From positions 1 through 15,337 of the forward strand of contig RFHZ01000422.1 of NCBI GenBank assembly GCA_003696125.1: DNA of 15,337 bases, given 5' to 3'. The position numbers and the translations under genes are program-made. Of the stretch, positions 2,612 to 11,947 are shown in pieces. The notes under the pieces were generated by a model. That model was not told where the DNA came from. It saw only the letters and a list, made by a program, of their open reading frames with translations, and made no database searches. This DNA comes from Nitrospinota bacterium. GTDB lineage: Bacteria > Tectomicrobia > Entotheonellia > J063. Each line of letters starts with the position of its first letter. The stretch's first letter is position 1.

Positions 2612-3838
2612 ATGCCGTTAGTGGTCAAGAAGTTCGGGGGAACTTCGGTCGGCAACATCGAGCGGATCCGGGAGGTGGCCAGGCTCATTGCCCGGGCCAG
2701 GGACAAAGGGGAGCGGATCGTGGTGGTTGTCTCGGCCATGGCCGGAGAGACCGATCGCCTGCTGAAGCTGGCCTACCAGGTATCTCCCTCACCGGTGGAG
2801 CGGGAGGTAGACCTCCTCCTCTCCTCAGGCGAAATCGTCTCCAGCGCCCTGGTTGCCATTGCCCTCAACGACCTCGGCTATCCGGCCGAATCCTTTACCG
2901 GTCGGCAGGTGGGGATCGTGACCGACAGTGCCTATACCCGGGCCCGGATCCGGCGGATAAACACCACGCGGATACTGCAGGCGTTGGACGAAGGGAAAAT
3001 CGCTGTGGTGGCAGGGTTTCAGGGGATCGACGAGCAGGAGAATGTGACCACGCTGGGACGGGGAGGCTCGGATACCACGGCGGTAGCCCTGGCCGCCGCT
3101 CTTGAGGCCGATATCTGCGAGATCTATACCGATGTGGATGGGGTGTACACCTCTGATCCCAATGTGGTCTCGCAGGCCCGACGAATCAGCAAGATCTCCT
3201 ACGATGAGATGCTGGAGATGGCCAGCCTGGGAGCCAAGGTGCTGCAGACCCGTTCTGTGGAAGTGGCCAAGATTTACGAGGTACCGCTTTTGGTCAAATC
3301 GACATTCAAAGAAGGTGGGGGAACACTAGTCGTGAAAGAGGTCCCGGAATTAGAGAAGGTGGTGGTCTCGGGCGTCACCTATGACAAGAACCAGGCCCGC
3401 ATCACCGTCACCCAGGTTCCTGATCGTCCCGGTATTGCCGCCCATCTCTTCGGCAAGGTGTCTGATGCCAACATCGTGGTGGACATGATCGTGCAGAACG
3501 TGGGAGAACATGGATTGACCGATATCTCCTTTACCGTGAGCCGCACCGATGGAAAGAAGGCGTTTTCCCTGGTCAAGGCGGCTGCCGAGAGCATCGGAGC
3601 GGGAGAGGTAAAGCTGGATGAAAACATCGCCAAGGTCTCCATCGTGGGGGCAGCCATGCAGAGCCATGCCGGGGTGGCCACCAAGATGTTTGCCACCCTG
3701 GCCCGTGAGAACATCAACATCATCATGATCAGTACTTCGGAGATCAAGATTTCGTGCGTGGTGGAGGAGAAGTACGCCGAACTGGCCACCCGGGTATTGC
3801 ACGAAGCGTTTGAACTGGATAGAGAACCGGAGGTATGA
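2612..3838 (+). CDS. lysC: Aspartate kinase with two ACT domains
   Basis: A 408-residue kinase that phosphorylates aspartate to aspartyl-4-phosphate, the first step of lysine, threonine and methionine synthesis. KKFGGTSV at residues 6-13 is the family signature of the amino-acid-kinase fold. [10 protein letters not shown] (148-157) and [11 protein letters not shown] (173-183) are the substrate and nucleotide loops. Two ACT repeats fill the C-terminus (about 262-330 with [12 protein letters not shown], and 341-405 with [14 protein letters not shown]) and normally mediate lysine and/or threonine inhibition. Length fits the monofunctional lysC/ask class. It lies 13 bp after hom with a GAAGGGAG ribosome binding site, so the enzymes before and after the semialdehyde step are made together; asd itself is not in the window. 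Which end product inhibits it cannot be read from the sequence. Confidence 0.97.
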
Positions 3839-8937: not shown

Positions 8938-9723
8938 ATGGATGCTACATTACCATTACCAGGGATAGGTGAAAATGTTTTACGACCCCAGCGCGATTTG
9001 GGGAGTGTCAGGCAGCTCCAGTACGTGAACACAGACACCCGGGCCAGCACGGAGATCGCCCTCACCACCGCCGAAGGGGATCGCGTCACCCTCTCCGCCA
9101 CTTCCCTCTCCCAGGCCGCATACGCCAGCTACGATTACCGGGGTCGCCTCCAGGGAGAAGCGGTTGATCTGCATGCCGAGACCGTGCAGCTCAGCTCCCA
9201 AAGCGGCATCACCATTACGGTAGAAGGGGATCTGAGTGAGGAGGAGCTGGCAGATATCCACCGGCTGATCAACACGGTCGAGGGGATAGCGCGGGAGTTC
9301 TTTAGCGGTGATCAGGAGGGAGCGCTGAGACAGGCGCTGCACATCGAAGATTTTGATTCGATTGCCCGCTTTGAGGCTGACCTCCAATACTCGCGTAGCG
9401 TTACCGTTGGTCACATCTACGAGGGGGACGGGAGGATGAAGGAGCTCTCCTCTGCTCCAGCCCCCAAGGAGCTAAAGCACCTGTTCAAGAGAATACGGAA
9501 AGCCATCGAGCATTCCGGGGTAGAAAAGGAAAAAGCCGCCAAGGTCATGCGTAAATTCATTCCCAAGCTCCTGAAAAAACTGGCCGATCACTACAGCGAG
9601 GACGCAGATAAACGCAAGCCAGCCGAGAAGATGACGGCAAAGTGGCATCGCTTTGCCGGCCACAACCTGTCCCCCCTCTTCTCCGACCTGTTTGCCTCCT
9701 CTCTCCACAGGGGAGAGGATTGA
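8938..9723 (+). CDS. Uncharacterised protein, acidic N-terminal and basic C-terminal halves
   Basis: I cannot assign a function. The 261 residues have no signal peptide or membrane segment. Residues 36-100 look like beta strands (TEIALTTAEGDRVTLSATSL, ETVQLSSQSGITITVEGDL). Residues 100-150 (LSEEELADIHRLINTVEGIAREFFSGD, then a helix ending FEADLQ) look like a helical segment. This combination resembles a group of hypothetical bacterial proteins I recall, with 'TVEGDL...DI...I..I...FFSGD' and sometimes annotated DUF5610-like; that match is from memory and unverified. Residues 175-235 are strongly basic and helical (KELKHLFKRIRKAIEHSG, KFIPKLLKKLADHY) and could bind nucleic acid or a partner. 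The ribosome binding site is modest (AAGGGG, about 10 bp before the ATG). It stands 101 bp after the hydrolase gene and is followed by a hairpin and the duplicated leader. Confidence 0.6.
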   Translation: MDATLPLPGIGENVLRPQRDLGSVRQLQYVNTDTRASTEIALTTAEGDRVTLSATSLSQAAYASYDYRGRLQGEAVDLHAETVQLSSQSGITITVEGDLSEEELADIHRLINTVEGIAREFFSGDQEGALRQALHIEDFDSIARFEADLQYSRSVTVGHIYEGDGRMKELSSAPAPKELKHLFKRIRKAIEHSGVEKEKAAKVMRKFIPKLLKKLADHYSEDADKRKPAEKMTAKWHRFAGHNLSPLFSDLFASSLHRGED

Positions 9724-9785: not shown

Positions 9786-10024
9786 TCCCCGTGATCCCTT
9801 TCTACATTTCTCTTTCCCGGCACTCACCGGATAGGTATAATGAGATATCGTCTCTCTGCGTTGTGTGTGCCTGGTGTATTGCCGTCAAGCGTTCCGTGTC
9901 CGGCAACACAGGGGCGCAGCGTGCTGCGTCCCGACCAGAAGGTGGTCTGTGTGCCGCCTCTGTGAAGAGATAAGCAGAGCAGAGGGGCATTTGTCAAGTC
10001 GTTTACGTTGAGGAAGAAGAAGAG
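9786..10024 (+). repeat. Left copy (R1) of a 239 bp direct repeat: leader duplicate without a gene start
   Basis: This stretch repeats at 10813-11051 in the same orientation, offset by 1027 bp, with about nine differences (seven substitutions and two compensating single-base indels, counted by eye; about 96% identity). It carries a perfect TATAAT at 9836-9841, a CCGG-N6-CCGG inverted repeat in the spacer upstream of it, a hairpin at 9889-9917 and a purine-rich end. Where R2 has the GTG start of the dehydrogenase (11051-11053), R1 has GCA (10024-10026), and similarity stops there. R1 is therefore a promoter-plus-leader copy cut off from its gene. It now lies upstream of hicBA and could in principle transcribe into it. 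No terminal inverted repeats of an insertion sequence are visible. Confidence 0.93.
9836..9841 (+). promoter_or_regulatory. Candidate -10 box in R1
   Basis: A perfect TATAAT, identical to the one in R2. The -35 region 17 bp upstream (TTTCCC-like) is poor, so activity may need an activator. CCGG arms at 9817-9820 and 9827-9830 sit between -35 and -10, where an operator could lie. Confidence 0.4.
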
Positions 10025-10036
10025 CAGTAAAAAGCC

Positions 10037-10065
10037 TTGACTGGTCTAGAGAACTACTCTACAAT
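10037..10065 (+). promoter_or_regulatory. Candidate sigma-70 promoter of hicBA
   Basis: TTGACT at 10037-10042 and TACAAT at 10060-10065 are separated by exactly 17 bp, one mismatch from consensus in each box. It begins 13 bp after the end of R1, inside the AT-rich segment unique to the insert, and would give a leader of about 125 nt to the hicB ATG. TATAAT at 10147-10152 could be a second, nearer -10 box, but its -35 (TTCTTA) is weak. Confidence 0.65.
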
Positions 10066-10160
10066 GAGTAAAATGTCAAGAGAAGAAGAGGAAGACGGAA
10101 GTACATCTAATCAGAGCCTTCTATTCTTATGATTTTTGAAAGGGATTATAATTATTTTAC

Positions 10161-10180
10161 TATACCGTTAGGCCAGTATA
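10161..10180. promoter_or_regulatory. Possible operator upstream of hicB
   Basis: TATAC at 10161-10165 and GTATA at 10176-10180 are inverted arms with a 10 bp spacer, 15 bp before the hicB ATG and just upstream of its GGAGGT ribosome binding site. Toxin-antitoxin operons are often self-repressed at such sites. Five-base arms alone are weak evidence. Confidence 0.3.
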
Positions 10181-10195
10181 AGTTGGAGGTACAAC

Positions 10196-10414
10196 ATGAA
10201 AGGTGAATTCACAGCAATTATAGAGCCCGCACCTGAAGGTGGGTATTGGGCAATTTGTCCAGAAGTACCAGGTGCCAATGGACAAGGAGAAACGATAGAT
10301 GAAGCAAAAGAGAATTTGCGCCAGGCTATTGAACTGATTCTTCAGGATCGAAGAGAGGATATTCTTCGTGGATTACCTGAAGATGCAATCCAAGAAAAGA
10401 TTGTAATTACATGA
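10196..10414 (+). CDS. hicB: HicB-family antitoxin
   Basis: A 72-residue protein with the HicB signature: a short beta-strand start (FTAIIEPAPEGGYWAICPEVPG) followed by NGQGETIDEAKENLRQAIELILQDR, the helix of the partial RNase H-like fold. HicB proteins bind and neutralise HicA mRNA interferases. This one is of the short type; no separate C-terminal helix-turn-helix or ribbon-helix-helix domain is visible, so how it would repress its promoter is unclear. It precedes hicA, with a 4 bp ATGA overlap, which implies coupled translation. The ribosome binding site GGAGGT at 10185-10190 is close to ideal. G+C is 42% by hand count, far below its neighbours, consistent with horizontal acquisition. The pair lies between the two copies of the 239 bp repeat. 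Confidence 0.92.
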   Translation: MKGEFTAIIEPAPEGGYWAICPEVPGANGQGETIDEAKENLRQAIELILQDRREDILRGLPEDAIQEKIVIT

Positions 10415-10590
10415 AACGGAAAGATTTAGAAAGAAAATTGCGAATAGCTGGTTGTTATCTCAAAAGAGAAGGTACTTCGCACTCGTTGTGGATTAATCCG
10501 AAAACCGGAGTTATTGAAGCAGTCCCCCGGCATAATGAAATCAAAGAACCTCTAGCAAAGAAAATACTAAAAAGCCTAAATGCAGAATAA
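10411..10590 (+). CDS. hicA: HicA-family mRNA interferase toxin
   Basis: A 59-codon frame, easily missed because of its size, starts at the ATG overlapping the hicB stop and ends TAA at 10588-10590. It reads MKRKDLERKLRIAGCYLKRE, then GTSHSLWINPKTGVIEAVPR, then HNEIKEPLAKKILKSL. This is the HicA double-stranded-RNA-binding-like fold: an N-terminal helix 'kdl...L...G', the catalytic histidine in GTSHSLW (His24), a strand hairpin, and a final helix with 'H.Ei....ak.ilk.l'. HicA cleaves mRNA and tmRNA and stops growth when not bound by HicB. The frame is intact and the catalytic His is present, so it may be active. G+C is 37% by hand count, with many A-ending codons unlike the rest of the window. 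Confidence 0.92.
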   Translation: MKRKDLERKLRIAGCYLKREGTSHSLWINPKTGVIEAVPRHNEIKEPLAKKILKSLNAE

Positions 10591-10812
10591 GTGGCTTAGA
10601 GCTTGTTATGCACTTTGAAATATTACATCCCTACCCGTGACGCTCCCTGCGTCAATCTTGCATGTTTGCAGGTATCACCTGCCGGGCCAGCAGATGCCCA
10701 AGCGTTTCCCCTGCCATATGGATCTTGCTCCCTTTCCGTTCCTGGATTCCATCGTATCTGGCACGACTACCACTCTCGGGAGTAGACTGCAGAGTCCTGC
10801 GGTCAAAAATGG
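10591..10812. other. GC-rich non-coding stretch between hicA and R2
   Basis: After about 40 AT-rich bases, composition returns to GC-rich. No convincing gene is seen; short frames here have no recognisable domain and no ribosome binding site. Two perfect hairpins sit side by side: TGACGC-TCCCT-GCGTCA (10638-10654) and GCAGGT-ATC-ACCTGC (10668-10682). Neither is followed by a T run, but they may end or protect hicBA transcripts. The stretch has no obvious counterpart left of R1. Confidence 0.4.
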
Positions 10813-10843
10813 TCCCCGTGATCCCTTTTTACATTTCTCTTTC

Positions 10844-10868
10844 CCGGCACTCGCCGGATAGGTATAAT
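10844..10868 (+). promoter_or_regulatory. Candidate promoter and operator of the dehydrogenase gene
   Basis: TATAAT at 10863-10868 is a perfect -10 box; the -35 region (about 10840-10845, TTTCCC) is poor. The inverted repeat CCGGC-ACTC-GCCGG at 10844-10857 occupies the spacer, a usual operator position. In R1 the matching site has one change that shortens each arm to CCGG. Confidence 0.45.
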
Positions 10869-10916
10869 GAGATATCGTCTCTCTGGCGTTGTGTGTGCCT
10901 GGTGTATTGTCGTCAA

Positions 10917-10974
10917 GCGTTCCGTGTCCGGAACACGGGGACGCAGCGTGCTGCGTTCCGACCAGAAGGTGGTC
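10917..10974 (+). promoter_or_regulatory. Leader RNA structure with mutually exclusive hairpins
   Basis: Hairpin A pairs GCGTTCCGTGT (10917-10927) with ACACGGGGACGC (10933-10944), loop CCGGA, one bulged G. Hairpin B pairs GGGACGCAGC (10938-10947) with GCTGCGTTCC (10950-10959). They share 10938-10944, so only one can form. Hairpin C (GACCA-GAAGG-TGGTC) is at 10960-10974. Further down, CCTCTG (10984-10989) can pair with CAGAGG (11007-11012). No known riboswitch class was recognised. Confidence 0.45.
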
Positions 10975-11050
10975 TGTGTGCCGCCTCTGTGAAGAGATAA
11001 GCAGAGCAGAGGGGCATTTGTCAAGTCGTTTACGTTGAGGAGGAAGAAGA

Positions 11051-11947
11051 GTGGACACACGGGAAACAACGGTCGGGATCATCGGGGTGGGGAACATCGG
11101 TATGGGTATGGCCAAAAACCTGCTCAAAGCAGGTTTCCCTCTGGTTGCCTGTGATGTGCGGCAAGAGCCCCTCCGCACCTTACAGGATCTGGGAGCCCGC
11201 ATTGCGTCCAGTCCCCGGGAAGTGGCGCAGGCGAGTGGTACCGTGCTGGCCGTGGTACTCGATTATGCGCAGATCCAGGCGGTGGTCGAGGGGCCACACG
11301 GGGTCAAAGAGGGGGTAAGGGAAGGGGACACCTTCATCATCTGCAGCACCATTGCTCCCCAGCAGGTGCAGGAAGTGGGACAGGCCCTTGCCCCGCTGGG
11401 GGTGGCCGTGCTCGATGCCCCGGTAAGCGGGGGGAGAGAGGGGGCAGAAGCGGGCACCCTCAGTATCATGGTGGGGGGAGAGGAATCGACTTTCCAGCGA
11501 TGCCGCCGGATCTTGGAAGCCGTTGGAGAGCACATCTACTATGCCGGTCCCCTGGGGAGTGGAGAGAAGATCAAGGCGATCAACCAGCTCCTGGTCGGGG
11601 TGCATCTGGTAGCCACCGCCGAGGCGGTGGTGCTCGGGAAGAAAGGGGGACTCGATCCGCAGCTGGTCTATGAGGTCATCAACCAGAGCCTGGGCTATAG
11701 CCGGGTCTTTGCCATGAAAGCCCCACGCATGATCGCGCACGACTTTCAACCCCGGGGCATCCTGCGGATCTTCCTCAAGGACCTGGGCATCGTGGCCAGT
11801 ATGGCCGAGGAGGCCGGCTCTCCGGTCTTCCTCACTCACCTCTCCCGCCAGATCTTTGCCACCGCCTGCACATTGGGGCTGGGCGAGGCAGATGACTCTG
11901 CCGTGGTCCAGGTGCTGGAGAGGCTGGCCGGCATGGAAGCAGGGTAA
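11051..11947 (+). CDS. NAD(P)-dependent beta-hydroxyacid dehydrogenase (3-hydroxyisobutyrate dehydrogenase / tartronate semialdehyde reductase family)
   Basis: A 298-residue enzyme with an N-terminal Rossmann domain and a C-terminal helical domain. GVGNIG at residues 12-17 is the dinucleotide-binding loop; DAPVSGGREGAEAGTLSIMVGG (from 122) is the substrate-binding signature; GSGEKIKAINQLL (169-181) holds the catalytic Lys175 with Asn178, close to the KLANQ pattern of tartronate semialdehyde reductase; KDLGI (243-247) is the last conserved stretch. The family oxidises or reduces small beta-hydroxyacids; substrate cannot be fixed from sequence. The GTG start at 11051 is supported by AGGAGG 7 bp upstream and by the full N-terminal strand. 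Its leader is the right copy of the 239 bp repeat. It ends 6 bp from the convergent importer operon, which could supply a sugar-derived substrate. Confidence 0.88.
   Translation: MDTRETTVGIIGVGNIGMGMAKNLLKAGFPLVACDVRQEPLRTLQDLGARIASSPREVAQASGTVLAVVLDYAQIQAVVEGPHGVKEGVREGDTFIICSTIAPQQVQEVGQALAPLGVAVLDAPVSGGREGAEAGTLSIMVGGEESTFQRCRRILEAVGEHIYYAGPLGSGEKIKAINQLLVGVHLVATAEAVVLGKKGGLDPQLVYEVINQSLGYSRVFAMKAPRMIAHDFQPRGILRIFLKDLGIVASMAEEAGSPVFLTHLSRQIFATACTLGLGEADDSAVVQVLERLAGMEAG

Follow-up and report, generated by a model that had tools for sequence, protein, structure and literature searches.

Insertion with long target duplication was reportedly described for restriction-modification systems by Nobusato et al. 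2000 (Gene 259:99) and Furuta et al. 2010 (NAR 38:2428). Restriction-modification systems are associated with target duplications that are long and variable, about 100 bp in order of magnitude (PMC3874152), and units of such form, flanked by direct repeats, can amplify in tandem (PMC3031569). How chromosomal toxin-antitoxin modules become fixed after horizontal transfer is not yet understood (PMC2654758). A literature search, of incomplete coverage and with the original restriction-modification papers outside it, found no report of a long target duplication for hicBA or other toxin-antitoxin modules. What is new in the present analysis is the toxin-antitoxin variant only; insertion with long target duplication has itself already been named for restriction-modification systems.

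The locus considered here lies in a stretch of 15,337 nucleotides from a Nitrospinota bacterium (contig RFHZ01000422.1), which we refer to as the window. Two direct repeats of 239 bp on the forward strand, at 9786-10024 (copy 1) and 10813-11051 (copy 2), enclose an insert of 788 bp (10025-10812, forward strand) that consists of the hicBA promoter and leader, hicBA itself and an IS5 relic. An earlier note had placed the repeats at exactly these coordinates and had counted about nine differences between them; in a gapped alignment of 240 columns they are 96.2% identical and differ by seven substitutions, every one a transition, and by two one-base indels, with abrupt homology limits on either side. 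To the left, copy 1 is contiguous with a gene of unknown family encoding 261 aa (8938-9723), and copy 2 is contiguous with an intact gene of the 3-hydroxyisobutyrate dehydrogenase type (11051-11947), both on the forward strand. The 3' end of copy 1 is the RBS-like sequence GAGGAAGAAGAAGAG, which is followed by no start codon, and copy 2 runs through GAGGAGG and stops one base into the dehydrogenase GTG start, so that the dehydrogenase retains its leader and RBS through copy 2. "Leader" is a fair name for the repeat. The earlier description of a duplicated promoter-leader accordingly holds for the leader before the dehydrogenase; "promoter" is unproven, no sigma-70-like site having been found within the 239 bp. 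RNA families and tRNAs were also searched for at the locus and were rejected.

In a whole-assembly search, all 239 bp were matched at two places only, both in the window, which rules out the identification of the full unit as a dispersed transposon. The next-best matches were partial, at most 84% identical, and fell mostly on query positions 81-154. The earlier note would have given up its interpretation for a dispersed, multi-copy repeat with transposon ends; the unit as a whole is nothing of the kind, and a dispersed sequence makes up roughly one third of either copy. This part, 75-106 bp long, belongs to a palindromic repeat that occupies 9866-9965 in copy 1, with its core GGGGCGCAGCGTGCTGCGTCCC at 9911-9932, and 10893-10992 in copy 2 (both on the forward strand). 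Elsewhere in the genome it has relatives at about 28 sites (for example L003-L032), which correspond to the middle of the 239-bp unit only. The palindrome GTAGGGGCGCAGCGCGCTGCGCCCCTAC is the base of the dispersed repeat and occurs with TGTGCCTGGTTTATTGTCGTCAAGTGTTCCGTG. When two mismatches or fewer are allowed, the 22-bp core has 42 sites in the genome and a single site in the four class relatives taken together, and a reversed control pattern has none. Both window copies deviate alike from the dispersed consensus, for example in TGGTGTATT and AAGCGTT, and because these derived bases are common to the two, the dispersed element must already have been part of the leader when the duplication took place. 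The 239-bp unit is in this sense host DNA that includes a dispersed palindrome. Elsewhere, the palindrome is seen at many gene borders, and since many of its copies are close to contig ends it probably breaks the assembly. Heptad arrays such as TGAGTAA / TTACTCA are found close to dispersed palindromes on several contigs (L078, L061 and others).

The hicBA pair carried by the 788 bp between the copies is AT-rich and foreign-looking, as had been stated; it is intact, with a G+C content of 40% compared with 57% for the window. On the forward strand, hicB (10196-10414, preceded by the RBS GGAGG) encodes a short-form antitoxin of 72 aa and overlaps by 4 bp the gene for a toxin of 59 aa, hicA (10411-10590). 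The toxin matches PF07927 with 38.3 bits (cut-off 27, E 1.5e-9) and keeps His24, the sole invariant column among 14 HicA proteins. The antitoxin matches PF15919 (23.4 bits, E 7e-5) and PF21748 (22.2 bits, E 1.3e-4) weakly, both under the curated cut-off, and a search of NCBIfam with hicB returned no match. A HicA-domain protein is therefore accompanied by an adjacent HicB-like ORF in the same operon. In its hicB-hicA order, its 4-bp overlap, its short HicB and its conserved HicA histidine, the pair is like the chromosomal type II HicBA systems (PF07927 with PF15919 or PF21748), and what sets it apart from those described in the literature searched is the long stretch of duplicated host DNA on either side. 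The pair also has a candidate promoter of its own, as the earlier note proposed, in the form of the sigma-70-like site TTGACT-N17-TACAAT at 10037-10065 (forward strand). A block of this promoter-leader region (10028-10154) is 78% identical to positions 4570-4693 of contig C672 (L061), where there is no hicBA; an ORF of 315 aa (unknown family) starts about 48 bp downstream of the block there, as though this promoter unit had also been put in front of a different gene.

On the minus strand, at 10655-10813, the insert carries a relic of an IS5-family transposase. It is cut at both sides and consists of 53 residues (codons about 105-157 of 271) followed by a stop; its identity to an IS5-family transposase is 73% over 52 aa, and it is the sole such piece in the assembly. 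The N-terminal side of the relic ends exactly at the start of copy 2. Because a truncated transposase abuts the repeat in this way, the insert is taken to be a trimmed scrap of mobile DNA. The original statement that the locus has neither transposase nor integrase needs amending on the first count and stands on the second, as the insert contains no integrase. With IS relics at the insert edges and direct repeats around a selfish module, the arrangement is like an IS-flanked composite transposon or addiction module. It is unlike one in that the flanking repeats are host sequence and not IS copies; neither is a complete IS copy with terminal inverted repeats.

HicA is encoded at four places in this genome, and two of the four are flanked by repeats. 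At the other two (C144 and C93), which are both near contig ends, no repeats were seen. The second flanked locus is on contig 775 (C775, L059), where hicB (2470-2718) and hicA (2719-2955) lie in an insert of 831 bp between direct repeats of 227 bp (1957-2183 and 3015-3241). These are 96.0% identical and have nine differences, of which eight are transitions. The duplicated target is made up of the 3'-terminal 124 bp of nhaA, which is intact, and of DNA downstream of it; copy 2 is the orphan. The target, the hicBA pair and the insert are all unrelated to their counterparts in the window. The left edge of the insert matches a region on C938 upstream of a UPF0236 (ISLre2-type) transposase gene, and the match ends at about the start codon. 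The IS pieces at the two loci are single, truncated and different from each other, and these edge relics show each insert to be a trimmed piece of mobile DNA.

We scanned 124 contigs of the genome (587 kb) for direct repeats within 4 kb of each other. Besides the window, the sole pair of at least 100 bp was the one around the hicBA of C775, which rules out a chance origin of the repeat pair; besides that locus, the sole pair of at least 90 bp consisted of low-complexity heptad arrays. Shorter repeats were seen at other toxin-antitoxin genes. On C711 (L097), a vapBC module with a MazE-like antitoxin and a PIN toxin (1226-2227) is situated between 50-bp direct repeats of 94% identity, and the sampled contigs contain no further match to the 50-bp sequence. 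By its layout this may be a third, weaker case of the same arrangement. A vapBC module with 57-bp repeats on C178 was set aside, since the repeat is a dispersed element, and repeats on C207 were rejected because they are dispersed and do not surround the PIN gene.

The association is also present in other genomes. In a first batch of 38 hicA loci, drawn from many genomes and extended by 1.5 kb to either side, hicA is enclosed by a repeat pair at six. Before these results were known, a further 20 loci had been selected, this time with 3 kb on each side; one of them, full of dispersed repeats, was dropped. A locus was scored as straddled if hicA lay between two paired repeats whose spacer was no longer than 1.2 kb, and control points were placed 1.0 or 1.75 kb away. 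By this measure hicA was straddled at 6 of the 19 loci, as against 2 of 69 control points (Fisher p = 0.001). The profile of repeat pairs has its maximum at hicA and drops to 0-1 at distances above 500 bp. The L236 pair duplicates the beginning of glyA (SHMT): copy 2 opens the intact gene, and copy 1 is an orphan piece of it with 86% identity. In L240 the duplicated sequence comes from a Memo-family gene (3' end), and in L224, a locus from a single-contig genome, it comes from an 855-codon ORF (start). Several of the pairs in other genomes are only 67-80% identical. Some of the pairs may be dispersed repeats, and those below 80% are individually weak evidence. L239, L220 and L215 were not taken as strong cases, their repeats being mostly dispersed or paralogous. 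Unlike the loci from genome assemblies, none of the 19 plasmid hicA loci (L242-L260) has a flanking direct repeat at hicA. The hicAB locus of E. coli K-12 has no flanking repeats, and a search of viral contigs with a HicA query gave no lead.

Two of these loci have a more complicated structure. In L225 (2636-6099), three copies of the 3' end of a gene resembling those for nucleotide-sugar dehydrogenases are arranged around a hicBA pair and around an adjoining 367-aa ORF, as if two modules had used one target in turn. In L230 (2772-4794), two direct-repeat pairs follow each other: the first (154 bp, 88%) surrounds hicBA and the second (84 bp, 86%) surrounds an adjoining 233-aa ORF.

The earlier note had likened the locus to a composite module inside a duplicated regulatory region. 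That such a module is a one-off is contradicted by the same architecture on C775, with its unrelated target and hicBA, and by the weaker versions in other genomes, and for this reason a mode of insertion is the better frame than a special module of regulatory DNA. Taken overall, the earlier interpretation is partly supported. In the window and on C775, host DNA of tens to hundreds of base pairs is duplicated on either side of the insert, and across the loci the target varies, duplication lengths range from 35 to 240 bp and the junctions have no common motif or core. The likeness to the restriction-modification insertions is that selfish, addiction-type genes without a transposase of their own are enclosed by direct duplications of the target that are long (around 100 bp in order of magnitude) and variable. 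The restriction-modification case was inferred by comparing related genomes; the present one is for hicBA and perhaps vapBC, and no empty site was seen, searches of same-class genomes having given no useful DNA match at this locus.

On this evidence hicBA probably entered by insertion with long target duplication. Foreign hicBA, along with scraps of its carrier mobile DNA, would have landed in the space upstream of the dehydrogenase gene, in an event that also duplicated the 239 bp at the point of entry. Expression of hicBA would be driven by its own promoter, and since the duplicated stretch would restore the leader and RBS of the dehydrogenase, the cost to this neighbor would be small. The starts of the copies are 1027 bp apart, and the excision of 1027 bp calculated in the earlier note is arithmetically right; RecA-type recombination between the copies could remove this length and bring back the empty site, with one good RBS before the dehydrogenase. 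Cells that had undergone excision would lose the HicB antitoxin and face leftover HicA, and loss would in this way be selected against if, as we infer, HicBA acts here as an addiction module. The reaction itself was most likely carried out by host end-joining, template switching or recombination machinery, because no shared end sequence was seen.

The most serious alternative is a single-crossover, Campbell-type integration, in which a circularized donor fragment from a related strain brought in hicBA together with that strain's variant of the leader and recombined with the leader already present. This predicts direct repeats that are long and variable in length, junctions free of motifs and divergence at the level of strains, and both repeat pairs of this genome are diverged by about 4%. 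The divergence suggests either that both pairs are old or that the copies came from different strains, and its near-equality at the two loci is compatible with target duplication and with single-crossover integration alike. The IS relics at the edges would also agree with a larger integrated piece that was trimmed later. However, the donor must already have had hicBA beside this leader and, independently, beside the end of nhaA, and searches of the assembly and of same-class genomes found no donor or circular form with hicBA beside the leader. For the repeats at gene ends in L236, L224 and L240, target duplication is the simpler account. We therefore regard single-crossover integration as unlikely.

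It is more improbable still that the leader, or the leader with the dehydrogenase, was duplicated in tandem long ago and that hicBA and the IS were inserted later, with deletion of the remainder. The truncated IS5 relic against copy 2 does indicate that deletions occurred at that edge. But no coding remnant of the dehydrogenase lies behind copy 1, which rules out a tandem duplication of that gene; the 587 kb scanned contain no further local duplication of at least 100 bp; and the same history would be needed twice, with near-equal repeat lengths and insert sizes, for two unrelated hicBA pairs. A site-specific recombinase acting in trans, with the repeats as att sites of extended identity and the target gene restored, would account for the frequent duplication of gene ends (the start of glyA, the end of nhaA), which is reminiscent of integrase attachment sites, and for the gene end found three times around two inserted modules in L225; it is made very improbable by the absence of an integrase from every insert, by a different target in each case and by junctions without a common core. 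Finally, although the assembly is a fragmented metagenome bin (990 contigs, contamination estimate 8%) and the copies differ as strain variants would, an artefactual joining of such variants is scarcely credible when the insert is continuous unique sequence and not a gap, two separate contigs with different sequences have the same arrangement, and the pattern recurs in few-contig assemblies such as that of L224.

Insertion with long target duplication may have a wider bearing. We would advance only tentatively, as something that falls somewhat short of an even chance, the generalization that solitary chromosomal toxin-antitoxin modules are mobility units that commonly enter in this manner and spare the target gene. 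If it is true, a duplication that spares its target would explain how toxin-antitoxin genes can settle at gene ends such as that of glyA. The duplication signature around hicBA in unrelated genomes would provide a testable route for the movement of these modules without a transposase; it predicts one-copy empty sites, and recombination between the copies would serve as a built-in measure of module loss. Toxin-antitoxin modules and restriction-modification systems would then belong together in a single class of self-inserting addiction genes.
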